Below are positions 14,066 through 25,502 of a stretch of DNA of 42,149 nucleotides, piece by piece. The notes beneath the pieces were generated by a model, which had not been told where the DNA came from, searched no databases, and worked only from the letters and a program-made list of their open reading frames with translations. A program made the position numbers and the translations under genes. Within the stretch, counting starts at the first letter, position 1; each line of letters begins with the position of its first letter. Source of the DNA: Gemmatimonadales bacterium (GTDB lineage: Bacteria; Gemmatimonadota; Gemmatimonadetes; Gemmatimonadales; JACORV01); contig JAUYOW010000151.1 of the NCBI GenBank assembly GCA_030697825.1, positions 1-42,149 on the forward strand, given 5' to 3'.

Positions 14066-16168
14066 TCAGTCGGCGGGCGCGACCTCGACCAGGTTGTCGT
14101 AGAAGGTCGCGCCGCCGCCCATGTCGGTCAGGGCGACCGACGTGGTCTCGTTCGCGTTCATCCCGTCCGCCGCGAACCTGCCCCACCAGATCGACGGCGC
14201 CTGTACCACCCCGCGCTTCACTTCCGCGGTCACCACCGCCACCGCCCGGAAGCCGCCACGGTCGTTGTAGCACCGCACCGTCAGGCCCTCGGTGACTTGC
14301 CGCGACGCGGCGTCGTGGGGATGGATGCGCAGAGTGGGCGCCCCAGCCTTCTTCCGCAGCGAGTCCACGTTCACGAAGGTCGAGTTCAGGAACTGGTGTG
14401 CCGGCGGCGAGATGAGTGCGAGTGGATACCGCGTCGCCAGTGATGGATCCGCCTCGCGAGACTCACGCGGCGGCAGATACGTTGGCACCGGGTCGAGCCC
14501 CTTCTGCGCCAGCCGCTCCGAATAGAACTCGCACTTGCCGGAGGGCGTCGCGAACCCGCCCTCGGCGTACGGCGCCCAGGGGGTCGGGAGGTTGAGCCGC
14601 GCCCAGCCGTGCTCGAGCAGCCGCTCGAAGGTGATGCCCTCCAGGTGCTGGTGGCCGCTCGCGAGCGCCTGGCGGATCATCTCTTCGTCGCTGTCGCGGA
14701 AGCACGGATCGTCGAAGCCCATGCGAGCGGCGAGGCGGCGGAAGATCTCCGAGTTCGGCAGCGACTCGCCCACCGGCGCGATGCTCGGCTGGTTCAGCGT
14801 CACGTAGTAGTGGCCGTAGGCCAGGTGCACGTCCCAGTGCTCCAGCTGCGTGGTGGCCGGCAGCACGAGGTCGGCGAACTGCGCGGTGTCGGTGAGGAAG
14901 TGCTCGAGCACGACGGTGAAGAGGTCCTCGCGCGCCAGCCCGCGGCGCACTCGCGTCCGGTCCGGCGCGATCGCGCCCGGGTTGGAGTTGTAGACGACCA
15001 GCGCTTGCACCGGCGGCCCGCCCACGCCGGCATCGGGCGCGGTGAGCGCCTCGGCGACCAGGCTCATGTTGATGGTGCGCGTGCCGGGCGGGATCAGTTC
15101 GAACCGCTCTAGCGCCGCCTTGTTGAATTTGTGCGCCGCCGAGGTCGACAGCTGCACGCCGCCGGCGGGGTGGCGCCAGTGGCCGGCCACGGCCGGCAGC
15201 GACGCGATGCACCGCACCGCCATGCCGCCGCCCGCATGACGCTGGAGTCCGTAGTTGACCCTGATGAACGCCGGCTTTGCGGCAGCGTATTCGCGCGCCA
15301 GCCGCACGATGTCCTCGGATGGCAGTTCGCAGATCGCAGCCACGCGCTCCACGGGATACTCGCGGACCCGTGCCTCGAGCCGGTCCGCGCCGAGGGTATG
15401 CCGTTCGAGGTAGTCGCGGTCGGCGAGCCCTTCGGAGAACAGTACGTGCATCATCCCCAGCGCGAGCGCCGCATCCGTGCCCGGGCGGATCATGAGGTGG
15501 CGGTCGCACTGCGCCGTGGTGCGGGTGGTGAGGGGATCGATCGCGATCACCGGCGCGCCTCGTTCGCGCGCGGCGCGGACGAAGGGCCAGAGGTGCGGGT
15601 TGGACGTGAGCGTGTTGGTGCCCCACAGGATTACGAGCTTCGAGTCGCCCACCGCCTCGGTGTCGGTACCGACGTTCTGGCCGACCGTCATCTGCATGCC
15701 GACCGAGCCCGCCGTCGAGCAGATGGTGCGGTCCAGCAGCGAGGCGCCGAGTCTGTGGAAGAACCTCCGGTCCATCGAGGAGCCCTGGATGAAGCCCATC
15801 GTCCCGGCGTAGGAATACGGAAGGATCGCCTGCGGCCCATGCTCGTCGCAGACCCGCCGCAGGCGCTGCGCGATCTCGTCGAGCGCCTCGTCCCACGAGA
15901 CGGGCGCGAACCTCCCCTCGCCCTTCGCGCCGACGCGACGCAGCGGACTGGTGAGGCGATCCGCGTGATAGGTGCGCTCGAGGTAGCGATCGACCTTGGC
16001 GCAGAGGAAGCCGCGGGTCACCGGATGATCCGGGTCGCCGCGCAGGTCCACGGCACGCCATGCGCCTTCGGCGGTACGCTCGATAGTGACGAGCATCGCG
16101 CAGGTGTCGGGGCAGTCGTGCGGGCAGGCGCCGCGAACGACGCGGCGCAGCGGTGCGGTGGGAGGCAT
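14066..16168 (-). CDS. Molybdopterin oxidoreductase with N-terminal Fe4S4 site
   Basis: A 700-residue enzyme of the DMSO reductase superfamily. Cys15, Cys19, Cys23 and Cys56 (CPHDCPDTC and GFLCAK) bind a 4Fe-4S cluster. The bis-MGD binding parts include VILWGTNTLTSNPH, VIAIDPLTTRT and the C-terminal dinucleotide-binding domain with LRIHPHDAA. No twin-arginine signal is seen before the cysteines, so it is probably cytoplasmic. I start at ATG 16168, after GGGAGG-like sequence context, because the longer frame adds a non-conserved stretch. No partner electron-transfer subunit is adjacent. Substrate unknown; the metal ligand is not clear from sequence (TICSTAGSVG is the likely region). Confidence 0.9.
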   Translation of the reverse strand: MPPTAPLRRVVRGACPHDCPDTCAMLVTIERTAEGAWRAVDLRGDPDHPVTRGFLCAKVDRYLERTYHADRLTSPLRRVGAKGEGRFAPVSWDEALDEIAQRLRRVCDEHGPQAILPYSYAGTMGFIQGSSMDRRFFHRLGASLLDRTICSTAGSVGMQMTVGQNVGTDTEAVGDSKLVILWGTNTLTSNPHLWPFVRAARERGAPVIAIDPLTTRTTAQCDRHLMIRPGTDAALALGMMHVLFSEGLADRDYLERHTLGADRLEARVREYPVERVAAICELPSEDIVRLAREYAAAKPAFIRVNYGLQRHAGGGMAVRCIASLPAVAGHWRHPAGGVQLSTSAAHKFNKAALERFELIPPGTRTINMSLVAEALTAPDAGVGGPPVQALVVYNSNPGAIAPDRTRVRRGLAREDLFTVVLEHFLTDTAQFADLVLPATTQLEHWDVHLAYGHYYVTLNQPSIAPVGESLPNSEIFRRLAARMGFDDPCFRDSDEEMIRQALASGHQHLEGITFERLLEHGWARLNLPTPWAPYAEGGFATPSGKCEFYSERLAQKGLDPVPTYLPPRESREADPSLATRYPLALISPPAHQFLNSTFVNVDSLRKKAGAPTLRIHPHDAASRQVTEGLTVRCYNDRGGFRAVAVVTAEVKRGVVQAPSIWWGRFAADGMNANETTSVALTDMGGGATFYDNLVEVAPAD

Positions 16169-16271
16169 GAACAATGTTAGGCGAGAAGCCCGGCGCAGGC
16201 AACGAAGCGGCGGCCGGCAATCCACAGGCCGGAGAAACGTAACAGATTGTCAAGCATCGAGTTGACTGGCG

Positions 16272-16449: not shown

Positions 16450-16638
16450 ATGAAGCGCTTGGTTCTAGCCGTTGCGGTCCTCGGTCTGATGGCGTGCAAG
16501 AAGCCCGAGGCGGCGCCCGCCGCTGACACGACGGCCGCGCCGGCCGCGGCGCCGGCTATGGATTCGACGATGATGGGCGACACGGCGCACCTGGCCGACA
16601 CGTCCAAGATGATGGGCGAAACGAAGAAGGCGAACTAA
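16450..16638 (+). CDS. Small Ala/Met-rich lipoprotein (62 aa)
   Basis: The protein begins MKRLVLAVAVLGLMACKKPE: a short lipoprotein signal with lipobox LMAC (Cys16). The mature part is low-complexity, rich in Ala, Pro, Thr and Met (PAADTTAAPAAAPAMDSTMM and a repeat of the MMGDTAHLADTSKMMGET type). The repeated Met-Met and His might bind metal, but this is a guess. A strong ribosome site (AGGAGAAGCG) precedes ATG, a promoter lies 85 bp upstream and a strong terminator follows 18 bp after the stop, so it is a one-gene transcript. No family recognised. Confidence 0.8.
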   Translation: MKRLVLAVAVLGLMACKKPEAAPAADTTAAPAAAPAMDSTMMGDTAHLADTSKMMGETKKAN

Positions 16639-16656
16639 GCGCGCCTCGCATTTCGA

Positions 16657-16705
16657 CCTCACACGAAGACTCGGGGCTCGCGCTCCGAGTCTTCGTGTTG
16701 TGAGG
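16657..16705. terminator. Strong bidirectional terminator hairpin
   Basis: CCTCACACGAAGACTCGG (16657-16674) pairs with CCGAGTCTTCGTGTTGTGAGG (16685-16705), at least 14 continuous base pairs around a 10-base loop with GC-rich tip. It separates the convergent lipoprotein (plus) and epimerase (minus) genes. Confidence 0.85.
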
Positions 16706-16709
16706 ACTA

Positions 16710-17717
16710 TCATGCCGCGTCGCGGAACCACCGGCCGGTGCGCTCCACCGCTTCAGCCGGCGGCACCACGGGCCTCCATTCCAGCTCGCGCTCCGCGCGC
16801 GACGACACGAACGGGTTGGCGTGGCCGAGGAACTGCACGGCCGCCTTGAACAGCATCATCGGCGAGCCGGGGCGCGCGGCGCGCAGCACGATGTCCGCCG
16901 CGCTGGCGGCCGGCCACGCCAGGAAGCGCGGGACCGCCAGCACGCGCAGCTGCACTCCCAGGCCGCCCGCGAACCGCTCCAGGAACTCGCGCTGGGTGAC
17001 CGCTCCGTCGTTGGCGATGTTGAACGGGCCCTGGACATCCGGGCGGTCGAGCGCCGCGAGCGCCGCGGCGGCGACGTTGCCGGCATAGACGACGCTCAGC
17101 GGGTTCGAGCCGTCGCCGATCACCATTCCTACCCCGCGCCGGAGCGCGCGCGCGACGCGGATGGAGAACTGGCGGTCGCCTTCGCCATAGATCACGCACG
17201 GCCGGAGCGCGACGGCCGAGAGTCGCGGCTCCTCCTCGTGCGCCATCCGCCACACCGCCTGCTCCGCCTCGCGCTTGGAGCGCGCGTAGTGATCGCCGGG
17301 GAAGATCGGGCGATCCGTGCCGAAGGACTCATCGACGCTCCGCTCGCCTCCATCGTAGGTCGTCTTGCGCCCATAGACGGCGACCGACGAGAGGTGCACC
17401 AGGCGAGCGCCGTGGGTCGCGGCCGCGCGCGCCACGGTCTCCGTCGCCGCGACGTTGGTCCGATGGTAGTGCTCCCAGCCCCGACGGGAGAGCACGACGG
17501 CCGCGGCGTGCACCACCGCGTCGGCCCCGCGCACGCCGGCCTCGATCGCCGGGGCATCCGTGATGTCTCCGCGCACCGGCACGGCGCCCATCCCCGCCAC
17601 TCCGGCGGCCGCGGTGTCGCTCCGGGCGAGCGCAGTGACGCGGTCACCCCGGGCCAAGAGGGCAGCGATGACGTGCCGGCCCACCAGCCCTGTTCCTCCG
17701 GTCACGAAGACCTTCAC
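16710..17717 (-). CDS. NAD-dependent epimerase/dehydratase (extended SDR)
   Basis: A 335-residue extended short-chain dehydrogenase. The nucleotide-binding motif VTGGTGLVGRHV is at residues 4-15, the active-site pattern YARSK near residue 147 with an upstream Ser in LSSVAVYG, and the segment RPCVIYGEGD is typical of sugar-nucleotide or 3-beta-hydroxysteroid-like members. I place the start at GTG 17717, which overlaps the ygfZ stop as GTGA and puts the Rossmann motif at the N-terminus. It is the last gene of the eight-gene run that begins with glcD. Substrate unknown. Confidence 0.9.
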   Translation of the reverse strand: MKVFVTGGTGLVGRHVIAALLARGDRVTALARSDTAAAGVAGMGAVPVRGDITDAPAIEAGVRGADAVVHAAAVVLSRRGWEHYHRTNVAATETVARAAATHGARLVHLSSVAVYGRKTTYDGGERSVDESFGTDRPIFPGDHYARSKREAEQAVWRMAHEEEPRLSAVALRPCVIYGEGDRQFSIRVARALRRGVGMVIGDGSNPLSVVYAGNVAAAALAALDRPDVQGPFNIANDGAVTQREFLERFAGGLGVQLRVLAVPRFLAWPAASAADIVLRAARPGSPMMLFKAAVQFLGHANPFVSSRAERELEWRPVVPPAEAVERTGRWFRDAA

Positions 17718-18727
17718 GGGGTTCCCAGCCACTTGGCTCCCTGCACGACGCCGTGGCTGCCGTCGGGCAGTTCGACGTCCGCCCCGTCGGCCACTTCGCG
17801 CCGGATCACCGCCACCCCGACATGGCCTTCCATGACTTCCGACCACGCCACGCTGGTGAGCCGCCCGACCGGCTTGCCGTCCAGCGAGAGCGCCAGCGGG
17901 AGCGGGCCCGCGGGCCCGCGCTCCAGCACTACGCTCGCGAGAGCGCGGTTGGCATGGCCGCGGAAGTGCAGGCGCGCGACCGTCTCCTGGCCCAGGTAGC
18001 AGCCTTTCGTGTAGGAGACCGCGCCGAGCTCGTCGAGTCGAGCCTCCTGGGGCAGCGTCTTGTCGTCAATCTCCGCGCCGAGGCGCGGGATGCCGGCGAG
18101 GATGCGGCATTCCTCGAGCAGGGCGGGCGAAGCTGGGACCGCGCCCCGGGACGCGAGCTCGTCTTGGAGCGCGGCCGCGTGCGCGGCCGGCACGACGCAG
18201 TCGAATCCCGGGGCGCCGCGCGCCACGGCTCGCGCGACCACGAGCTGCCGGCCTGCTACTGTCGCGGCGACGGCGCCGGCGGCGGGTGGGACGGGCCCGC
18301 TGCGCAGCACGCTGGCTATCATCGCGTCGGCGCCGGCGCCGTAGATCCCGACGCTCGCCGTCTCGGCCGAGATGTCGGTGGAGCGGCAGAGGCGGGGCGG
18401 CAACGAGCGGGTGAATGTCTCACGGACTCCTGCGCCGCCCGCGTCAGGCGCCTCGACGAGGATCTCGTCCACCAGCCGCGTGATCCACAGCGGCGTGACG
18501 ACCATGCCCTTCACGGTGAGGAGCGCGCCGAAGAGATGCGCGCCGTCTCCCGCCCGCTCGATATCGCAAGTGACGAGTCCTTGCACGCAGGCCACGCGGC
18601 CTGGGCCCGCGAGGCTGAAGCGTGTCACATCGGTTCGCCGGAAGGTGACGACACCACCTTCGAGCGCCCGGCGTTCCCCACTCGACACGGCGCCTTCGGG
18701 CACGAGCGGGACAGCGGGATCAAACAC
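17714..18727 (-). CDS. ygfZ: YgfZ/GcvT-like folate-binding protein
   Basis: A 337-residue tetrahydrofolate-binding protein related to the T protein of glycine cleavage. The signature KGCYLGQETVAR (about residue 240) contains the conserved cysteine of YgfZ, which helps in repair or assembly of certain iron-sulfur enzymes. In this operon the natural client would be GlcF with its Fe-S clusters; that link is inference. GTG 18727 overlaps the HAD gene by 8 bp, and the stop overlaps the next gene by 4 bp. Confidence 0.92.
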   Translation of the reverse strand: MFDPAVPLVPEGAVSSGERRALEGGVVTFRRTDVTRFSLAGPGRVACVQGLVTCDIERAGDGAHLFGALLTVKGMVVTPLWITRLVDEILVEAPDAGGAGVRETFTRSLPPRLCRSTDISAETASVGIYGAGADAMIASVLRSGPVPPAAGAVAATVAGRQLVVARAVARGAPGFDCVVPAAHAAALQDELASRGAVPASPALLEECRILAGIPRLGAEIDDKTLPQEARLDELGAVSYTKGCYLGQETVARLHFRGHANRALASVVLERGPAGPLPLALSLDGKPVGRLTSVAWSEVMEGHVGVAVIRREVADGADVELPDGSHGVVQGAKWLGTP

Positions 18728-19415
18728 GGGTAGCGGTCTGCACGGGCTGGAGCAGCGCGTCGAGCTCGGCGGGAAGGTGGCCCTCGAACGAGGCCCAGAC
18801 GCGGTCGGCCGCCGCCAGCGCGCCGGCGTGGTGCGAGGTGGTCAGCATCACGCAGCCTGCTCCCAGCGCGCGGGCCGCGTAGAGTCCGGGCAGCGAGTCC
18901 TCGACGACGACGGCGCGGGGCGTCCCTGGCTCGCCGCATGGCGCGCCGAGTCGCGCGAGCGCGAGCCGGTAGCCCGCGGGGTCCGGCTTGGTGATGCCGA
19001 CGTCTTCGGCGCTCACGATGACCTCGACGACGTCCGAGATGCCCGCGCAGGCCAGCCCGAACTCGATCTCGCCGCGAAGCGCTCCGCTCGCGATCGCAAC
19101 CCGCCAGCGCGCGGCGGCGCGGCGCACGAAGCCGGTCACTCCGGGCACGATCGGCAGGTCGCGCGCAGCGAACGCCGCATAGCGCTCCGCCTTCCGGCCT
19201 ACCAGGCGTTTCGCGGTGCGCGGCTCCAGCGGGCGGTTCGCCCGCCGGTACGCTTCCCGGAACGAGGCGTGGTCGTCGAATCCGAGATAGTCGGCGTAAT
19301 AGGTGGGCTCGTCGAGGGTGAGCCCCTCATCGGACAGGACATCGCGGAAGGACGCGAAGTGCAGGGGTTCGTCGTTCACGACGACGCCGTTGAAGTCGAG
19401 CAGCAGAGCGTCCAT
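18720..19415 (-). CDS. HAD superfamily hydrolase, phosphoglycolate phosphatase-like
   Basis: A 231-residue HAD protein of the beta-phosphoglucomutase/phosphoglycolate phosphatase shape. Motif I is LLLDFNGVVVND, motif II is IASG, motif III Lys is in GITKPDP, and motif IV is VVVEDSLPG. The second acidic residue of motif I, normally Asp, is Asn, a variant seen in other family members too but one that could weaken phosphatase activity. ATG 19415 overlaps the preceding stop as ATGA. Next to glycolate oxidase genes a role in making glycolate from 2-phosphoglycolate is attractive but unproven. Confidence 0.88.
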   Translation of the reverse strand: MDALLLDFNGVVVNDEPLHFASFRDVLSDEGLTLDEPTYYADYLGFDDHASFREAYRRANRPLEPRTAKRLVGRKAERYAAFAARDLPIVPGVTGFVRRAAARWRVAIASGALRGEIEFGLACAGISDVVEVIVSAEDVGITKPDPAGYRLALARLGAPCGEPGTPRAVVVEDSLPGLYAARALGAGCVMLTTSHHAGALAAADRVWASFEGHLPAELDALLQPVQTATRV

Positions 19416-20296
19416 CACCCGAAGCGGCTCTCCAGCCAGTCGGCGATCACCGGCCACACTTCAGCACGCGCGGTGCTGGAGACCAGCAGCCGGTTGTGGT
19501 CGAAGTCCTCGGTGAAGCCCTCCGCGCGGCCGCAGTTCATGAAGGTCTTGTCGGCGCTGCCGAACTCGTTCACGAGGTCCTCGCAGATTGATGGCGGCGC
19601 GATCAGCCAGTCGCCACCGCCCGCGAGCGCGAGCACGGGAACCGTGATCCTCCGGCAACCGGCGAAGTAGTCGGTGCCGTCGTCGCCCACCCAGCGGCCG
19701 CGCAGGTTCCAGCGCAGCCACTGCTCCATGATGCCCGCATGCTCGTCTTCCGGCCCCAGCCCCAGAAGCCGCGCCGGGAACCGGCCCAGGGTGCGGGTGA
19801 CGGCCAGCACCGCCGCCGCCATCGGGTACTGCAGGATGCCCAGACCGGTGGGCGCGGGAGTGCCGGCGAGGACGAGACCCACGACGCTGCGCGCAAGATC
19901 GCTCCCCGCTCCCAGGAACGCGACGGCGATCACACCGCCGGCGCTGTGGCCCAGCCAGACGACCCGATCGCGGCCGGTTGCCTCGAGGACGCCACGCACC
20001 AGCGCCGGCGCGTCGCGCCGGATCCAGTCCTCGAAGTGCCACGCGCTGTTCCTCCCGGCCTCCCCCGAGCGGCCGTGGCCGCGCAGCTCCGCGACCCACG
20101 AGTCGAACCCGCGTTCGGCCAGCACCCGCGCCAGCCCGCGCTCGCTCTTCCCACCCATGAAGAAGTCGCGGTTCGAGAATGTGCCGTGCACCAGGAGTAC
20201 CGGCGGTGCGCCTCGCGGCCGCTCGGGAGACGCATGAAAGAGGGCCAGCTCCACGCCGTCGTCGGCGCGGGTGAGGATCGGCGCTACGTCCGTCAC
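19415..20296 (-). CDS. Alpha/beta hydrolase
   Basis: A 293-residue alpha/beta-hydrolase. The oxyanion region is VLLVHGTFSNRDFF, the nucleophile elbow GHSAGG (about residue 105) gives the serine, and a late FDHNRLLVS provides a likely histidine. A cap region around LGIL to GRW lies between. Start GTG 20296 overlaps the glcF stop by 4 bp (GTGA). No signal peptide; cytoplasmic esterase or lipase-like. It sits in the middle of the glycolate operon, but its substrate cannot be told from sequence. Confidence 0.88.
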   Translation of the reverse strand: MTDVAPILTRADDGVELALFHASPERPRGAPPVLLVHGTFSNRDFFMGGKSERGLARVLAERGFDSWVAELRGHGRSGEAGRNSAWHFEDWIRRDAPALVRGVLEATGRDRVVWLGHSAGGVIAVAFLGAGSDLARSVVGLVLAGTPAPTGLGILQYPMAAAVLAVTRTLGRFPARLLGLGPEDEHAGIMEQWLRWNLRGRWVGDDGTDYFAGCRRITVPVLALAGGGDWLIAPPSICEDLVNEFGSADKTFMNCGRAEGFTEDFDHNRLLVSSTARAEVWPVIADWLESRFG

Positions 20297-21666
20297 GTCG
20301 CGTAGGACCAATCGAGCAGCTCCACCGGGTGTCGCACCTCCACGTCGAGGCCGCGGAGCAGCGTGCCGGCGCCGATCTGCATGAGGCAACCGGGGTTCCC
20401 CGTGACGACGACGTCCGGGCGCGCCTTGCCTATCGCCTCGAGCTTCGCGCCAAGCACCTGGTTCGACAGCTCCGGCTCGACCAACGAATAGAGCCCGGCG
20501 CTGCCGCAGCACCGATCACTGCCGTCGAGGGGAACCTGGACGAGGTCGGGGATCGCGTCGAGGATGGCGCGGGGCGCCGCCGCGACCTTCTGCGCGTGCA
20601 GGAGATGGCAAGGCTCATCGTAGGCGACCCGCAACGGCAGCGGATTGCCGCGCCTGGGTCCGCGGTCCGCCAGCACCTCAGTGACGTCGCGCACCCGCGC
20701 GGCGAAGTCGTGAGCGCGGTCCTCGAGCGCTTCCCCGGTGAGCCACTCGCCATACGCCTTCAGCATGGCGCCACAACCGGCGCTGTTGGTCACCACCGTT
20801 ACGCCGGGTGCGGCGCCGTCGAACGCCCTCACGTTCTCGCGCGCCAGCTCGCGCGCCAGGTGCTGGTGGCCCGAGTGCGCGGCGAGCGCGCCGCAGCATA
20901 CCTGGCCGGGCACCTCGCTGGTCACGACGCCGTTCACCGCCAGCGTGCGGATGGTGGCGTCGTGCACGTGGCCGAAGAGGCCGTCCATGACGCAGCCGCG
21001 GAACAGCGCAACCTCGCGCGCGGCGTCGCCGGGGCCCGAGGTGCGCGGCGGCTCGGGTGCGGTATCTCCCGCGCTCCGGCCGTCGGACGGCACGCTCGGC
21101 GCCGGCCGTCGCGCGGCAGACGCCGCGACGCTCGCCGCCCCGCGACCGCTTCTCGTCGCCGCGAGCATCGCCAGCATCGAGGCGAGACGCGGGGCATCCG
21201 GTCCCGCACCGCGCGAGAGCACCTCCGGCAACCGGGTGGCTCGCGCGAGGCGTGAGAGCGCCCACATCGATCTCTGGCGCTCGGGTCGGGCGAGGAGCCA
21301 GAGCCCGGCGCGCACCAGCAAAGGAAGTGGCCGCGTGTGCGTGATCTCGGCCCGCGCGGCCTCGAGTGCCGGACCGAAGAGCACACCCGAGGGGCACACG
21401 CTCTCGCACGCCCGGCACCCGAGACAACGGTCGAGATGCGAGGCCATCTCCGGGTCGTCGGGCGGAAGCTCTCCGCGCTCCAGCGCGCGCATCAGCACGA
21501 TGCGCCCGCGCGGCGAGTCGCTCTCGTCCGAGGTGACCTCATAGGTGGGGCACGCCGGGAGGCAGAACCCGCAGTGCACGCACGCGTCGAGTCCGGCCCA
21601 GGCGTGCGCGTTGGCCCCCTGGCGCGCCGGTGAGATGGCCCGGTCCGTCCGTCCGTCCAGCTTCAT
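20293..21666 (-). CDS. glcF: Glycolate oxidase iron-sulfur subunit
   Basis: A 457-residue subunit of glycolate dehydrogenase. Two 4Fe-4S motifs are visible: CVHCGFCLPACP (about residues 29-40) and CLGCRACESVCP (about 84-95). Two CCG-type domains follow, with GQVCCGALAAHSGH and DRCCGSAGLYSL. Between them a low-complexity Ala/Pro/Ser linker (about 175-210) is longer than usual. ATG 21666 overlaps the glcE stop as ATGA. It passes electrons from GlcD/E flavin to the quinone pool. Confidence 0.95.
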   Translation of the reverse strand: MKLDGRTDRAISPARQGANAHAWAGLDACVHCGFCLPACPTYEVTSDESDSPRGRIVLMRALERGELPPDDPEMASHLDRCLGCRACESVCPSGVLFGPALEAARAEITHTRPLPLLVRAGLWLLARPERQRSMWALSRLARATRLPEVLSRGAGPDAPRLASMLAMLAATRSGRGAASVAASAARRPAPSVPSDGRSAGDTAPEPPRTSGPGDAAREVALFRGCVMDGLFGHVHDATIRTLAVNGVVTSEVPGQVCCGALAAHSGHQHLARELARENVRAFDGAAPGVTVVTNSAGCGAMLKAYGEWLTGEALEDRAHDFAARVRDVTEVLADRGPRRGNPLPLRVAYDEPCHLLHAQKVAAAPRAILDAIPDLVQVPLDGSDRCCGSAGLYSLVEPELSNQVLGAKLEAIGKARPDVVVTGNPGCLMQIGAGTLLRGLDVEVRHPVELLDWSYAT

Positions 21667-22817
21667 GCGACCAGCGGCACCGCGAACACGCCGTTCGGAT
21701 CGAACGTCGCGCGCAGCGCGTCGGTGAGCTGCCGCACGCCGGGCGCGAGCGCGCCCCATACGCCCGCGGCCTCGCGAGTGGGCGCGTCCGCGCGCTCCAG
21801 TGTGACCGGCCAGCCTCGGCCGGCCAGGGCCGCGCGCAGCGCGTGGACGACGGCAGGCGCCACGCTTCCCGCGCCCACGCGCACCGTGCCGCGTGGCACC
21901 GTGACGCTGATGCCGAGGAGGTCGCCAAGATGCGCCCCCGCGAGCGCCACAGCGTCGCCCCACGACGCCGGATCGGAGCCGATGCGGAGGACAACGGGCC
22001 AGCTTCCGACCATTCCCTGCCACTCCGCCCAAGGGGTAGGGTGTAGGGTGTGGGGTGGGGGCGTGATCTCGCGGCAGTCATGCAGCGCCGTCACGGTTCG
22101 GGCCGCGGCGTCGAGCTCCTCTTCCACGCCGCGGGCGGTCCCGATGGCGCGCAGCGCAAGCACCCAGGCGCGGTCGTACCCGACCGCCGCGGAGAGCGGC
22201 GGACTAGTCACCTCGAAGGCGGCGGTAGCAGTCCCGGAGCCGAGCAGTCGAGCGGTGGCTGCGGCGACCGCGGCGAGGGAGCCCGACCACGCGCGCGTCG
22301 CATCCGCCTCGGCGCGGGCGCGCAGGCGCAGGTTAATCTCGGTGATGACTCCGAATCCCCCGTGTCCGCCGATCACGACCTTGGCGAGGTCGAACCCGGC
22401 TACGTTCTTCACCACTCTCCCCCCGATCCGCACCGTGGTCCCGTTGCCCGCCACCACGGTCATCCCGAGAACCTGGTCGCGCGGGGGACCGTAGCCGGCG
22501 GCGAGCGGTCCGCCGCCGCCCGCGGCGAGAGCGCCGCCGAGCGTGCGCCCGGAGATGCCGGGCGGATCGAGCGCCAGCCACGCCCCCTGTTCGGCGAGCC
22601 GCGCTCCCAGCTGGTCGAGCGGACATCCGGCGCCCGCGGTTGCGACGAGGTCGGCGACGTCGAAACGGGACAGGGCGTCGAAGGGCCTGAGATCGAGCAG
22701 GGAAGCGTCGCGAGGCGCGTCCGGCCACCAGGATCCGGCCCCGCGCGGGAAGAGGCGGCGGCCGGCGGCGGCCGCCTCGCGGACTTGCTCCGCTACGCCG
22801 TCGGGTTCGGCGCGCAT
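21663..22817 (-). CDS. glcE: Glycolate oxidase FAD-binding subunit
   Basis: A 384-residue FAD-binding protein related to GlcD. The flavin-binding part contains FPRGAGSWW, PGISGRTLGGALAAGGGGP and GGRVVKNVAGFDLAKVVIG. The C-terminal end is VPLVA. In the middle, EITPPPHTLHPTPWAEWQ is encoded by a CCCTACA-type low-complexity tract that looks like an inserted repeat. ATG 22817 begins MRAEPDGVAEQV and overlaps the small upstream gene by 25 bp. Confidence 0.92.
   Translation of the reverse strand: MRAEPDGVAEQVREAAAAGRRLFPRGAGSWWPDAPRDASLLDLRPFDALSRFDVADLVATAGAGCPLDQLGARLAEQGAWLALDPPGISGRTLGGALAAGGGGPLAAGYGPPRDQVLGMTVVAGNGTTVRIGGRVVKNVAGFDLAKVVIGGHGGFGVITEINLRLRARAEADATRAWSGSLAAVAAATARLLGSGTATAAFEVTSPPLSAAVGYDRAWVLALRAIGTARGVEEELDAAARTVTALHDCREITPPPHTLHPTPWAEWQGMVGSWPVVLRIGSDPASWGDAVALAGAHLGDLLGISVTVPRGTVRVGAGSVAPAVVHALRAALAGRGWPVTLERADAPTREAAGVWGALAPGVRQLTDALRATFDPNGVFAVPLVA
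22033..22061. repeat. G-rich GGGTGTA/GGGTG tract inside glcE
   Basis: The plus strand reads GGGGTAGGGTGTAGGGTG followed by TGGGGTGGGGG. The minus strand codes the proline- and histidine-rich insert of GlcE. The spaced G runs could also form a quadruplex on the non-coding strand. Confidence 0.7.
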
Positions 22818-23185
22818 CGTACCAGCTCGGCCCGCACGGCCGCGACGAAGGTCTTCGCCTCTTCGATCAGCGGACGGGCGTCCTCGGGTCGCCACCCCGC
22901 GAAGCTGCGCTGATCGAGCGTCATCTCGAAGAGGGTCGCGAAGCCGCTTGGCAACTCGGTGCGCACCATTCGGGTGTAGTCGGAGAGTGAGCGCTGCTGG
23001 TGCCACGGTTCGTCCCCCAGCCACACCTTGACCATCGCGGCGCCCATCACTCCGGGGTACGCCGCCTCGATCGCGCGACCGCCCGTGCCCCCGTCGAGAT
23101 GGCGCTGTGCCGCTGACATCCGTCGATCCGCGTCCGCGAGCTGCCCCTCCATCTGTGCCATCCAGCGAGTCGGGATGGCGCTCAC
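22793..23185 (-). CDS. Small protein of unknown function between glcD and glcE, possibly HEPN-like
   Basis: A 130-residue protein. I choose GTG 23185, which overlaps the glcD stop as GTGA; an ATG at 23215 is the other option. The protein is mostly helical: ADADRRMSAAQRHL, EAAYPGVMGAAMVKVWLG and a C-terminal IEEAKTFVAAVRAELV. This layout, and especially the last helix, resembles HEPN proteins, but the RxxxxH catalytic motif is not seen. Its place inside the glycolate operon suggests a helper of the enzyme. Identification is weak; existence as a gene is well supported by the overlaps on both sides. Confidence 0.7.
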   Translation of the reverse strand: MSAIPTRWMAQMEGQLADADRRMSAAQRHLDGGTGGRAIEAAYPGVMGAAMVKVWLGDEPWHQQRSLSDYTRMVRTELPSGFATLFEMTLDQRSFAGWRPEDARPLIEEAKTFVAAVRAELVRCAPNPTA

Positions 23186-24606
23186 GAGTCGCTCCAGGGC
23201 CGCCACTCGCGACACTGCGCGGTCGGGATGACCTTGCCCCGGTTGGCCCGGGCTTCCGGATCGAACGCGCGGCGCGCCGCGGCCATGAGGCCGAGCTCGT
23301 CAGGCCCGAAGACGAGCGGCATGTAGCGCAGCTTGTCTATTCCGACGCCGTGCTCGCCGGTGATGGAGCCGCCCGCCGTGACGCACACTTTCATGATCTC
23401 GCCGCTCGCCGCCTCGACGCGGGCCAACTCGTCGGGGTCGCTCGCATCGAAGGTCAGATTGGGGTGCAGGTTGCCGTCTCCAGCGTGAAAGACGTTGCTC
23501 ACGCGCAGCCGGTGCCGCGCCGCGATGGCCGCGATCGCCTCGAGCACGTCGGGCAAAGCGGTCCGGGGCACCACCGCGTCCTGCACCACCAGGTCGGCGC
23601 TGGCGCGGCCCATGGCGCCGAACGCCTTCTTGCGCCCCTGCCAGAGCCGCTCGCGCTCGGCGGAAGTCGTCGCCTTGCGCACGTCGCGCGCGCCCGAGGC
23701 GCGGCAGATCGCCTCCGCGTGCGTGGCCTCCGCTTCCGCGCCGCCCGGCCGGCCATCCACCTCGACGAGGAGCACCGCGGCGGCATCCGTCGGGTACCCC
23801 GCGGCGTAGATCGATGACTCGACCAGCTGGATCGTGCTCTGGTCCATCATCTCGAGCGCCGCCGGGACGATGCCGGCCGCGATGATGTTCGACACCGCCT
23901 CACCCGCCGCGCGCAGCGAAGTGAAGTCCGCGAGCAGCGTCCGGATCGACGCCGGGATCGGCACGAGGCGCACCGTGATCTCCGTCGCGATGCCGAACAT
24001 CCCCTCGCTGCCCACGAAGAGGCCGACCAGGTCCGGTCCCCACGGCTCCCCCGCCGCGCTCCCCAGCCGCACCAGCTCGCCGGACGGGAGCGCGACCTCG
24101 AGGGAGAGGACGTGGTTCGTCGTTACCCCGTACTTGAGGCAGTGCGGCCCGCCCGCGTTCTCCGCCACATTACCGCCGATCGTGCAGGCTGACTGACTCG
24201 AGGGATCGGGCGCGTACATCAGGTCGAATGGAGCCGCGGCACGGGACAACGTGGCGTTCACCACCCCGGGTTCGACGACCGCGCGGCGGTTGGCGGGGTC
24301 GATCGAGCGGATCTTCCCCAGCCGCGTCAGGGTGATCAGGACCTCGGGCGCCTCGGCCAGCGCCCCGCCCGAGAGGCCCGTCCCAGCGCCCCGGGCCACG
24401 AATGGCACGCCTCGCGCGGCAAGAAGCCTCAGCACCGCGCACACTTCGGCCGTGGAGCCCGGGAAGACGACCACCCCGGGCGTGCGCCGGTGCGTCGGCA
24501 GGCCGTCGGCCGAGAAGGTCGCGAGCTCGGCGCGGGCGGTGCGCACGTAACGCTCCCCGACGATCGCGGCGAGCGCGTCGGGGACCGAGGTGGCGGCAGT
24601 CAACAT
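23182..24606 (-). CDS. glcD: Glycolate oxidase subunit GlcD (FAD-linked oxidase)
   Basis: A 474-residue flavoprotein that oxidises glycolate or a related 2-hydroxyacid such as lactate. The FAD-binding domain has GVPFVARGAGTGLSGGA, PDPSSQSACTIGGNVAENAG and GSEGMFGIATEITVRL. The substrate domain has the metal/His motifs VFHAGDGNLHPN and GSITGEHGVG. Start ATG 24606 begins MLTAATSVPDALAAIVG. It is the first gene of an eight-gene minus-strand run. Only 26 bp separate it from the divergent phosphodiester glycosidase-like gene, so both promoters must be very short or overlap the coding ends. D-lactate dehydrogenase is the alternative reading, but the glcE and glcF partners favour glycolate. Confidence 0.95.
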   Translation of the reverse strand: MLTAATSVPDALAAIVGERYVRTARAELATFSADGLPTHRRTPGVVVFPGSTAEVCAVLRLLAARGVPFVARGAGTGLSGGALAEAPEVLITLTRLGKIRSIDPANRRAVVEPGVVNATLSRAAAPFDLMYAPDPSSQSACTIGGNVAENAGGPHCLKYGVTTNHVLSLEVALPSGELVRLGSAAGEPWGPDLVGLFVGSEGMFGIATEITVRLVPIPASIRTLLADFTSLRAAGEAVSNIIAAGIVPAALEMMDQSTIQLVESSIYAAGYPTDAAAVLLVEVDGRPGGAEAEATHAEAICRASGARDVRKATTSAERERLWQGRKKAFGAMGRASADLVVQDAVVPRTALPDVLEAIAAIAARHRLRVSNVFHAGDGNLHPNLTFDASDPDELARVEAASGEIMKVCVTAGGSITGEHGVGIDKLRYMPLVFGPDELGLMAAARRAFDPEARANRGKVIPTAQCREWRPWSDS

Positions 24607-24632: not shown

Positions 24633-25502
24633 GTGTTCGCCGCCGTCGTCGCCGCGTTGCTCCAGGCGCAGTCACCCGCGCCGGCCCTCGAGGTGCGCAT
24701 CGCCGGGGCCTGGATCGGATGGCCGAACTACGCCCCCGGCGCGGCCGTGGCGCGGCCCGGCCTGCTCGATGCCGCCATCGCCTGGGAGGACAGCGCCGAC
24801 GGCCTAGTCACCGGCAGCTTCGTGGTGCGTACCGCGGAAGGAGCACTGCGCAACAGCGTGGCAGTGGTCGAACTCGACCCGCGCCGGTTCCGGTTCGATC
24901 TCGCCCTGCTGCCGCCCGACGGCCGCCGCAGCGCCGCCGATCATCTCGCCGCCGACAGCACGCTGGTGCTGGTATCCAACACCGGGCTGTTCCGGGTCAA
25001 CGGCACTCCGCAGGGGCTGGTGATGCTCGATGGCCGTCGTCGCGGCGCGCTGGCCGGCTGGCTCGACGCCGTCGTGGTGCTCGACAGCGCCGGGGTGCAT
25101 GTCACGGACATCGCGACCGCGGCGCGGGAAATGCCGCCGGGTTCGTCGGGATTCCAGACCCTGCCGTTCCTGGTGCGCGACCAGCGCGTGGTGTTCGGGT
25201 GGACCAACGGGCTGAAGCTCTCGCGCACCCATCGTGACCGCCGCATCACCCTGTGCCTGAATCCGGGGCGGATCCGCCTGTTCCTCAGCAACTTCGAGGT
25301 GTTCGGGGCGACGGCGGGCCGGGTGCCCATCGGGCTCACCATCCCCGAGCAGGCGCTGATCGCCGCGGGGATGGGGTGCGCCGAGGCCGTGGCGCTCGAC
25401 GGCGGCATCAGCTCGCAGATCGCCATCCGGGTGGGGAAACGCGTGGTGCGATGGCCCGGGTGGCGCCGCGTGCCCTTGATGTTGCAGGTCCGCAGGCGAT
25501 AG
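24633..25502 (+). CDS. Phosphodiester glycosidase family protein (NAGPA/DUF2233-like)
   Basis: A protein of about 289 residues. The C-terminal motif CAEAVALDGGISSQIAIR matches the LDGGGSS signature of the NAGPA/DUF2233 family, enzymes that remove phosphodiester-linked sugars. Earlier family features are LVSNTGLFRVNGTPQGLV and the strand-rich core. I start at GTG 24633 because it gives a short hydrophobic N-terminus (FAAVVAALLQAQ), likely a signal peptide; the frame is open upstream but antisense to glcD. A TATTTT box only six bases before the GTG would give a leaderless message. Substrate unknown. Confidence 0.8.
   Translation: MFAAVVAALLQAQSPAPALEVRIAGAWIGWPNYAPGAAVARPGLLDAAIAWEDSADGLVTGSFVVRTAEGALRNSVAVVELDPRRFRFDLALLPPDGRRSAADHLAADSTLVLVSNTGLFRVNGTPQGLVMLDGRRRGALAGWLDAVVVLDSAGVHVTDIATAAREMPPGSSGFQTLPFLVRDQRVVFGWTNGLKLSRTHRDRRITLCLNPGRIRLFLSNFEVFGATAGRVPIGLTIPEQALIAAGMGCAEAVALDGGISSQIAIRVGKRVVRWPGWRRVPLMLQVRRR

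Follow-up and report, generated by a model that had tools for sequence, protein, structure and literature searches.

In the glc operon of the Escherichia coli type, glcD, glcE and glcF are accompanied by glcG, glcB and glcA. Here we examine a related operon from a Gemmatimonadales bacterium, located in a stretch of DNA of 42,149 nucleotides (GenBank assembly GCA_030697825.1, contig JAUYOW010000151.1; hereafter 'the window') in which an additional gene for a 130-residue protein stands between glcD and glcE, which are otherwise adjacent to each other and to glcF. This small gene is conserved, has a fixed position in one bacterial lineage, and encodes a predicted HEPN-like protein that is a candidate accessory subunit or assembly factor of the GlcDEF-type oxidase. 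The window is a complete contig of a draft genome whose 333 contigs total 3,369,619 bases and which is 98% complete.

In PMC10581226, glcDEF is reported from Gemmatimonadota as three subunits, the genes are taken as a sign of bacterial glycolate use, and glycolate is described as a common algal exudate. The operon in the window resembles both the glcDEF genes of this phylum and the E. coli-type operon in its glcD-glcE-glcF order and in the domains encoded. It differs from both in carrying the small gene and in having genes for YgfZ, a HAD-family hydrolase, an alpha/beta hydrolase and an epimerase downstream.

A conserved small gene at the glcD-glcE junction

The small protein is kept at 36-80% identity in relatives, and comparison of the window's copy with four relatives gives ratios of non-synonymous to synonymous substitution rates (dN/dS) of 0.11, 0.32, 0.29 and 0.22. 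Because the reading frame is conserved and these ratios are low, the small gene is a genuine coding gene under purifying selection and not a chance open reading frame (ORF). Across 13 proteins, 18 of the 130 positions are invariant (P5, R7, W8, Q15, A19, G35, R37, A38, Y43, V46, A50, V54, W55, W61, P79, F82, W98 and E109).

The initial annotation had placed this gene outside the known GlcDEF subunits, and the database searches agree. The small protein has no match in NCBIfam or among PDB sequences (phmmer and profile searches), and PADLOC returned none for two orthologs. Pfam searches of 13 members up to an E value of 10 yielded seven families, each in a single member and none credible (best E 0.025), and the single PHROGs match, for the ortholog from Bacterium HR33, is not usable (E 0.049). 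Among viral contigs, none of 26 pattern matches was confirmed as a relative, and no description of the gene was found in the open-licence literature searched.

A search with the single sequence located the gene in nine of 61 near genomes, including that of the window. A profile search then matched 15 of 395 Gemmatimonadota genomes, 13 of them strongly (E 3.4e-47 or better) and two weakly, and a profile built from 13 sequences matched 14 of 288 genomes of the order, all strongly and one of them new. One weak match (G375, E 7.7e-4) was treated as chance and excluded from the carrier count; it has five internal stops and no glc gene at its locus, and it is not among the 14 matches of the larger, order-wide profile. 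Named carrier records are mostly Gemmatimonadota, Gemmatimonadetes or Gemmatimonadales, and one is Bacterium HR33. A scan of contigs with one conserved peptide pattern, which relatives outside the phylum could escape, returned 115 stretches and eight relatives.

Each carrier genome has one match, at a constant location. Lack of conservation beside glcDEF in other genomes had been set beforehand as the point on which the accessory-subunit idea would fail, and in all 14 strong carriers the gene was found between glcD and glcE. In all, 86 loci were surveyed, chosen from the listed matches and not at random (six from family f1, which includes the window, 64 from f3, six from f2 and ten from other families); 13 of them carry the small gene, 71 are non-carriers in which glcD and glcE were both matched, and two have no glcD match. 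In 64 of the 71 non-carriers, a start codon for glcE is available with a 4-base overlap of the glcD stop, and the small gene therefore sits at that junction. In 12 of 13 carriers, a start codon for the small gene is available with exactly the same 4-base overlap of the glcD stop, the remaining carrier (G018) having a 1-base overlap (TGATG). Likewise, 12 of 13 carriers have an available glcE start that overlaps the small gene at its end; in G003, the exception, the nearest lies at +62.

Organization of the operon and identity of the enzyme

Recomputed frames, starts and stops give the following order of minus-strand genes from position 24606 to 16710; start codons throughout are predicted ones.

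23182..24606, minus strand: glcD-like FAD (flavin adenine dinucleotide) subunit, 474 amino acids; Pfam FAD_binding_4 and FAD-oxidase_C; TIGR00387 464.5 bits
22793..23185, minus strand: small gene for a predicted HEPN-like protein, 130 amino acids; GTG start, 4-base overlap with the glcD stop
21663..22817, minus strand: glcE-like FAD-binding subunit, 384 amino acids; ATG start within the end of the small gene; Pfam FAD_binding_4
20293..21666, minus strand: glcF-like iron-sulphur (Fe-S) subunit, 457 amino acids; ATG start, ATGA overlap with glcE; Fer4-type and two CCG domains
19415..20296, minus strand: alpha/beta hydrolase, 293 amino acids; GTG start; Pfam Abhydrolase_1
18720..19415, minus strand: HAD-family hydrolase, 231 amino acids; ATG start; Pfam Hydrolase/HAD_2
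17714..18727, minus strand: YgfZ, Fe-S cluster assembly/insertion protein, 337 amino acids; GTG start; TIGR03317 90.6 bits
16710..17717, minus strand: NAD-dependent epimerase/dehydratase family protein, 335 amino acids; GTG start; Pfam Epimerase
16655..16705 (limits approximate), no strand assigned: hairpin directly after the epimerase stop, probable transcript end

Successive genes overlap by 4 (GTGA), 25, 4 (ATGA), 4 (GTGA), 1 (TGATG), 8 and 4 (GTGA) bases. The eight-gene run joined mostly by GTGA or ATGA overlaps, as first annotated, was thus recovered, with four of the seven overlaps being of the 4-base type. Tight overlaps of this kind are ordinary in compact bacterial operons. Further in-frame GTG codons 30 and 21 bases upstream of the small-gene start could extend its N-terminus by up to ten residues, and an alternative GTG upstream of the HAD gene, at 19457, would yield 245 amino acids.

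The terminal hairpin (fold of 16640-16712, minus strand) has a predicted energy of -36.9 kcal/mol with a z score of -5.9, and none of 200 shuffled sequences equalled it. No run of T residues follows it, and consensus scans found neither a terminator nor a promoter. The following minus-strand gene begins 484 bases past the epimerase, after the hairpin. From the overlaps, the hairpin and this gap, we infer that the eight genes are probably one transcription unit. The complete order recurs at locus L028, and L029 has all genes except a match for the hydrolase.

Several neighbours of the run were also observed. The downstream gene (14066-16225, minus strand) encodes a molybdopterin oxidoreductase that is DMSO (dimethyl sulphoxide)-reductase-like by its best NCBIfam matches, which are under the cut-offs shown. 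A 62-residue lipoprotein-like ORF (16450-16638, plus strand) converges on the hairpin, which could end both transcripts. On the other side, a gene for an NAGPA-type phosphodiester glycosidase (24636-25502, plus strand) diverges from glcD, with about 30 bases between the likely starts, both of which are predicted.

The enzyme has the Pfam domains of the GlcDEF type, namely FAD_binding_4 plus FAD-oxidase_C in GlcD, FAD_binding_4 in GlcE, and Fer4-type plus two CCG domains in GlcF. Scores against NCBIfam equivalogs are all under the cut-offs for GlcD (TIGR00387, 464.5 bits vs 567.9; NF008408, 507.5 vs 897), GlcE (NF008439, 139.7 vs 284) and GlcF (NF008434, 257.5 vs 333), and we therefore name the enzyme 'GlcDEF-type'. 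It is probably a flavin/Fe-S 2-hydroxyacid oxidase, with glycolate as the likeliest substrate. Malate synthase is encoded elsewhere in the genome, which is compatible with glycolate oxidation. The genome has no match to PF03928, which we take to be the GlcG family. The genome also encodes another protein that has two CCG domains (G000:C329:17861-18562).

Probable gain and loss of the small gene

A combined tree of GlcD and GlcF was prepared from 85 rows by a quick method, with low support at deep nodes. The presence of the small gene on this tree requires four changes, compared with a mean of 12.3 after shuffling, and none of 500 shuffles was as low. A single clade composed of carriers alone is rejected (approximately unbiased test, p-AU 0.003). 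A clade of carriers plus six non-carriers nested among them, a grouping picked after the tree had been viewed, outperforms the free tree by 16 log units (p-AU 0.70). The simplest reading of these sequence comparisons is that there was one gain followed by several losses. Horizontal transfer of the small gene may also have played a part.

If the gene was deleted in the nested non-carriers, the 4-base glcD/glcE overlap would be expected to be missing there. It is missing in four of these six loci (G022, G202, G229 and G274), compared with three of 65 others. This difference is only suggestive of deletion, as G022 and G202 have irregular frames and the other two, G229 and G274, are sisters. No relic of the small gene was found in the gaps of f3 non-carriers, where the longest forward ORF has 66 residues, and longer gap ORFs in other families (G037 and G311) do not resemble the small protein by eye.

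Most f3 GlcE proteins carry an N-terminal extension of 25-30 residues with an RxRALLG-like helix, which the six f1 GlcE proteins, including that of the window, do not have (23 starts compared). By eye, this extension does not resemble the small protein.

Predicted fold of the small protein

AlphaFold2 models of the window protein and the Bacterium HR33 ortholog were built from the same nine sequences. The window protein is predicted to be all-helical with high confidence (predicted local distance difference test score, pLDDT, 91.4; predicted template modelling score, pTM, 0.85), and the ortholog model has similar values (pLDDT 93.1, pTM 0.87). Searches with VIA-align rank the HEPN protein 2hsb first for both models (Z 10.4, root-mean-square deviation 3.3, 110 aligned residues; and Z 10.9, 2.8, 105). 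In each list, HEPN appears in the titles of five of the seven best rows (Z 9.1-10.4 and 9.8-10.9). The top PDB matches from Foldseek are 2hsb and 1wol for one model and 1ufb and 2hsb for the other; 1ufb is presumably a HEPN protein, its title not saying so. The predicted helical bundle of the small protein thus lies nearest to HEPN structures such as 2hsb, 1wol and 3o10, and on the basis of its predicted fold it likely belongs to the HEPN superfamily.

Three observations count against this assignment. All of the VIA-align Z scores are below 13, the value advised for helical bundles, and lower scores may reflect a common arrangement; unrelated bundles also appear in the lists, at Z 7-9. Every Foldseek E value is above 0.001 for both models. 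No Pfam HEPN model matched any of 13 members up to an E value of 10. The catalytic HEPN ribonuclease (RNase) motif, Rx4-6H, is not conserved, and the small protein is probably non-catalytic. An R-x6-H string (R22/H29, in helix 1) is present in seven of 13 proteins and missing in six, and might be a nuclease-like motif that varies or has been lost. Elsewhere, R-x4-6-H strings are scattered, and three proteins have none besides.

Weak similarity to a domain on nitrite/sulphite-reductase-type proteins

The sole non-orthologous profile match of note among the 395 genomes (G387, E 1.5e-5 per genome, or about 0.006 over 395) is to the C-terminal domain of a nitrite/sulphite-reductase-type protein. 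This reductase domain was matched in six of 200 genomes searched. In some Gemmatimonadota, proteins of this type (L026:16-1878 and L066-L071; Pfam context for L026 only) end in a C-terminal helical domain that is possibly HEPN-like. Pfam HEPN gave a sub-threshold match (E 0.066) in one of three reductase domains scanned, and a profile of the domain matched solved HEPN proteins with E values of 0.42 and 0.64, among better-scoring, chance-like matches to dehaloperoxidase.

In Table 1 of PMC3710099, HEPN-T (Cpin_6617) is listed as having no Rx4-6H RNase motif and as being fused to a pair of ferredoxin domains. By analogy, this architecture may be the same as that of the reductase C-terminal domain, and the two together would provide a parallel for HEPN modules on redox proteins. 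The small protein is like HEPN-T in having no conserved Rx4-6H motif and in being tied to a redox protein. Unlike HEPN-T, it is encoded as a stand-alone protein inside glcDEF and is not fused to ferredoxin, and the sequence similarity is marginal.

Possible roles of the small protein

We hypothesize that the small protein serves GlcDEF as an accessory subunit or assembly factor specific to this lineage, a tentative proposal that is the likeliest of those considered and whose chances we place close to even. Its gene is embedded among the subunit genes, and overlapping starts are available on either side in 12 of 13 carriers each, which suits a product that is translated with GlcD and GlcE; a non-catalytic helical adaptor fits such a role. 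An ancestor of one Gemmatimonadales lineage would have acquired the small gene at the glcD/glcE overlap, most simply in a single event, and the product of the gene would be made in step with GlcD and GlcE through coupled translation. It would then bind one or both FAD subunits, perhaps by way of its N-terminal IPTRW segment, which is conserved, and of invariant residues in helices 1 and 2, and thereby stabilise or assemble the oxidase complex as a fourth, accessory component. A more specific version, in which the protein is a previously undescribed, non-catalytic HEPN-fold adaptor on glycolate oxidase that was recruited once through insertion where the glcD stop and glcE start overlap, with the reductase domain as a second case of a possibly wider redox use, is conceivable and in our estimation less likely than not.

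Other findings pull away from these proposals. At a threshold of E 1e-25 or better, where weaker matches may include other FAD proteins, GlcE is matched in 275 of 395 Gemmatimonadota genomes, compared with 13 of 395 that are strong carriers of the small gene. The gene is confined, as far as was searched, to one lineage. Most GlcE-bearing genomes and the nested relatives are without it; therefore the enzyme does not, in general, need the small protein. Comparison of carriers with nested non-carriers yields 2, 1 and 1 residues of GlcD, GlcE and GlcF that track the small gene, which is background (YgfZ control, 1). With regard to the reductase domain, alignment of its profile with that of the small protein gives an hhalign probability of 19%, and of 10.5% with added sequences. 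The 'new accessory subunit' of the initial annotation consequently stands as regards its conservation at glcD/glcE and its place outside the known subunits, is weakened by its restriction to one lineage, and stays plausible.

The candidate residues from the broader comparison, comprising 2, 9 and 11 sites in GlcD, GlcE and GlcF that initially appeared to track the small gene, were rejected after controls. Means stayed under 0.1 for random sets of seven, and two clade controls returned 0-1 sites, but a third control, made up of the six nested non-carriers, returned 1, 3 and 7.

The main rival to a subunit or assembly factor is an operon regulator like MtlR. On this view a non-catalytic HEPN protein, with RNA or a partner as its target, would repress or tune expression of the glc operon. 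PMC3710099 describes MtlR as a repressor encoded within the mannitol operons that it controls, which apparently does not bind the promoter; a large fraction of MtlR proteins are without the RNase motif, and RNA binding is proposed by the authors. The small protein is similarly a small HEPN-like protein of a carbon-use operon without a conserved Rx4-6H motif (R22/H29 in seven of 13), and its patchy loss suits a regulatory role. Unlike MtlR, its gene lies between two subunit genes, and the overlapping starts available on each side in 12 of 13 carriers favour co-production with GlcD and GlcE. Neither Pfam (13 members) nor NCBIfam gave an MtlR-type match. We consider a regulator unlikely.

Another rival, which we judge somewhat more improbable still, is that the product is a general housekeeping or small-molecule-binding helical protein, such as a carrier of a substrate or cofactor, whose gene is a mere passenger in the operon. 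The return of unrelated helical bundles by Foldseek is consistent with this, and the occurrence of one match per carrier genome, in the same place every time, argues against it. That the operon has trapped a toxin gene from a HEPN toxin-antitoxin or defence pair is highly improbable: the HEPN-like fold, the HEPN toxins in the structure lists and the R-x6-H string in seven of 13 proteins would fit, but that string is missing in the other six, the gene is flanked by glcD and glcE in all 14 carriers and hence no antitoxin or nucleotidyltransferase (HEPN-MNT) gene adjoins, PADLOC gave no match for two orthologs, and the viral contig scan yielded no confirmed relative.

YgfZ and the HAD-family hydrolase

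It had also been suggested that YgfZ may serve GlcF and that the HAD protein may supply glycolate; neither a YgfZ dedicated to GlcF nor this source of glycolate gained support. YgfZ is assigned with 90.6 bits against a TIGR03317 cut-off of 49 (NCBIfam), and it is the only YgfZ match in the genome. It therefore probably serves other Fe-S proteins too, and a role for GlcF only is unlikely. The HAD protein scores 30.8 bits against the phosphoglycolate phosphatase model TIGR01449, for which the cut-off of 180 is strict (passed by one of 14 control genomes). A better candidate for this activity, at 80 bits also under the cut-off, is located on another contig, and the best NCBIfam match of the HAD protein is TIGR02009, below its cut-off.

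Linkage of glcF and ygfZ is widespread in Gemmatimonadales, independent of the small gene. Among loci with at least 500 bases past glcF, ygfZ lies downstream in at least 26 of 39 from f3, four of six from f2 and none of five from other families, these counts being lower bounds owing to short flanks. The longer f1 loci, L028-L030, all have ygfZ downstream of glcF.

Implications

The glcDEF enzyme operon is already known, and what is new is the lineage-specific gene for a HEPN-like protein inside it. The clean presence or absence of this gene at one junction in related genomes constitutes a natural experiment on what GlcDEF needs for its assembly. More broadly, the small protein points to a role for a HEPN-like fold that would be neither that of an RNase nor that of a toxin.

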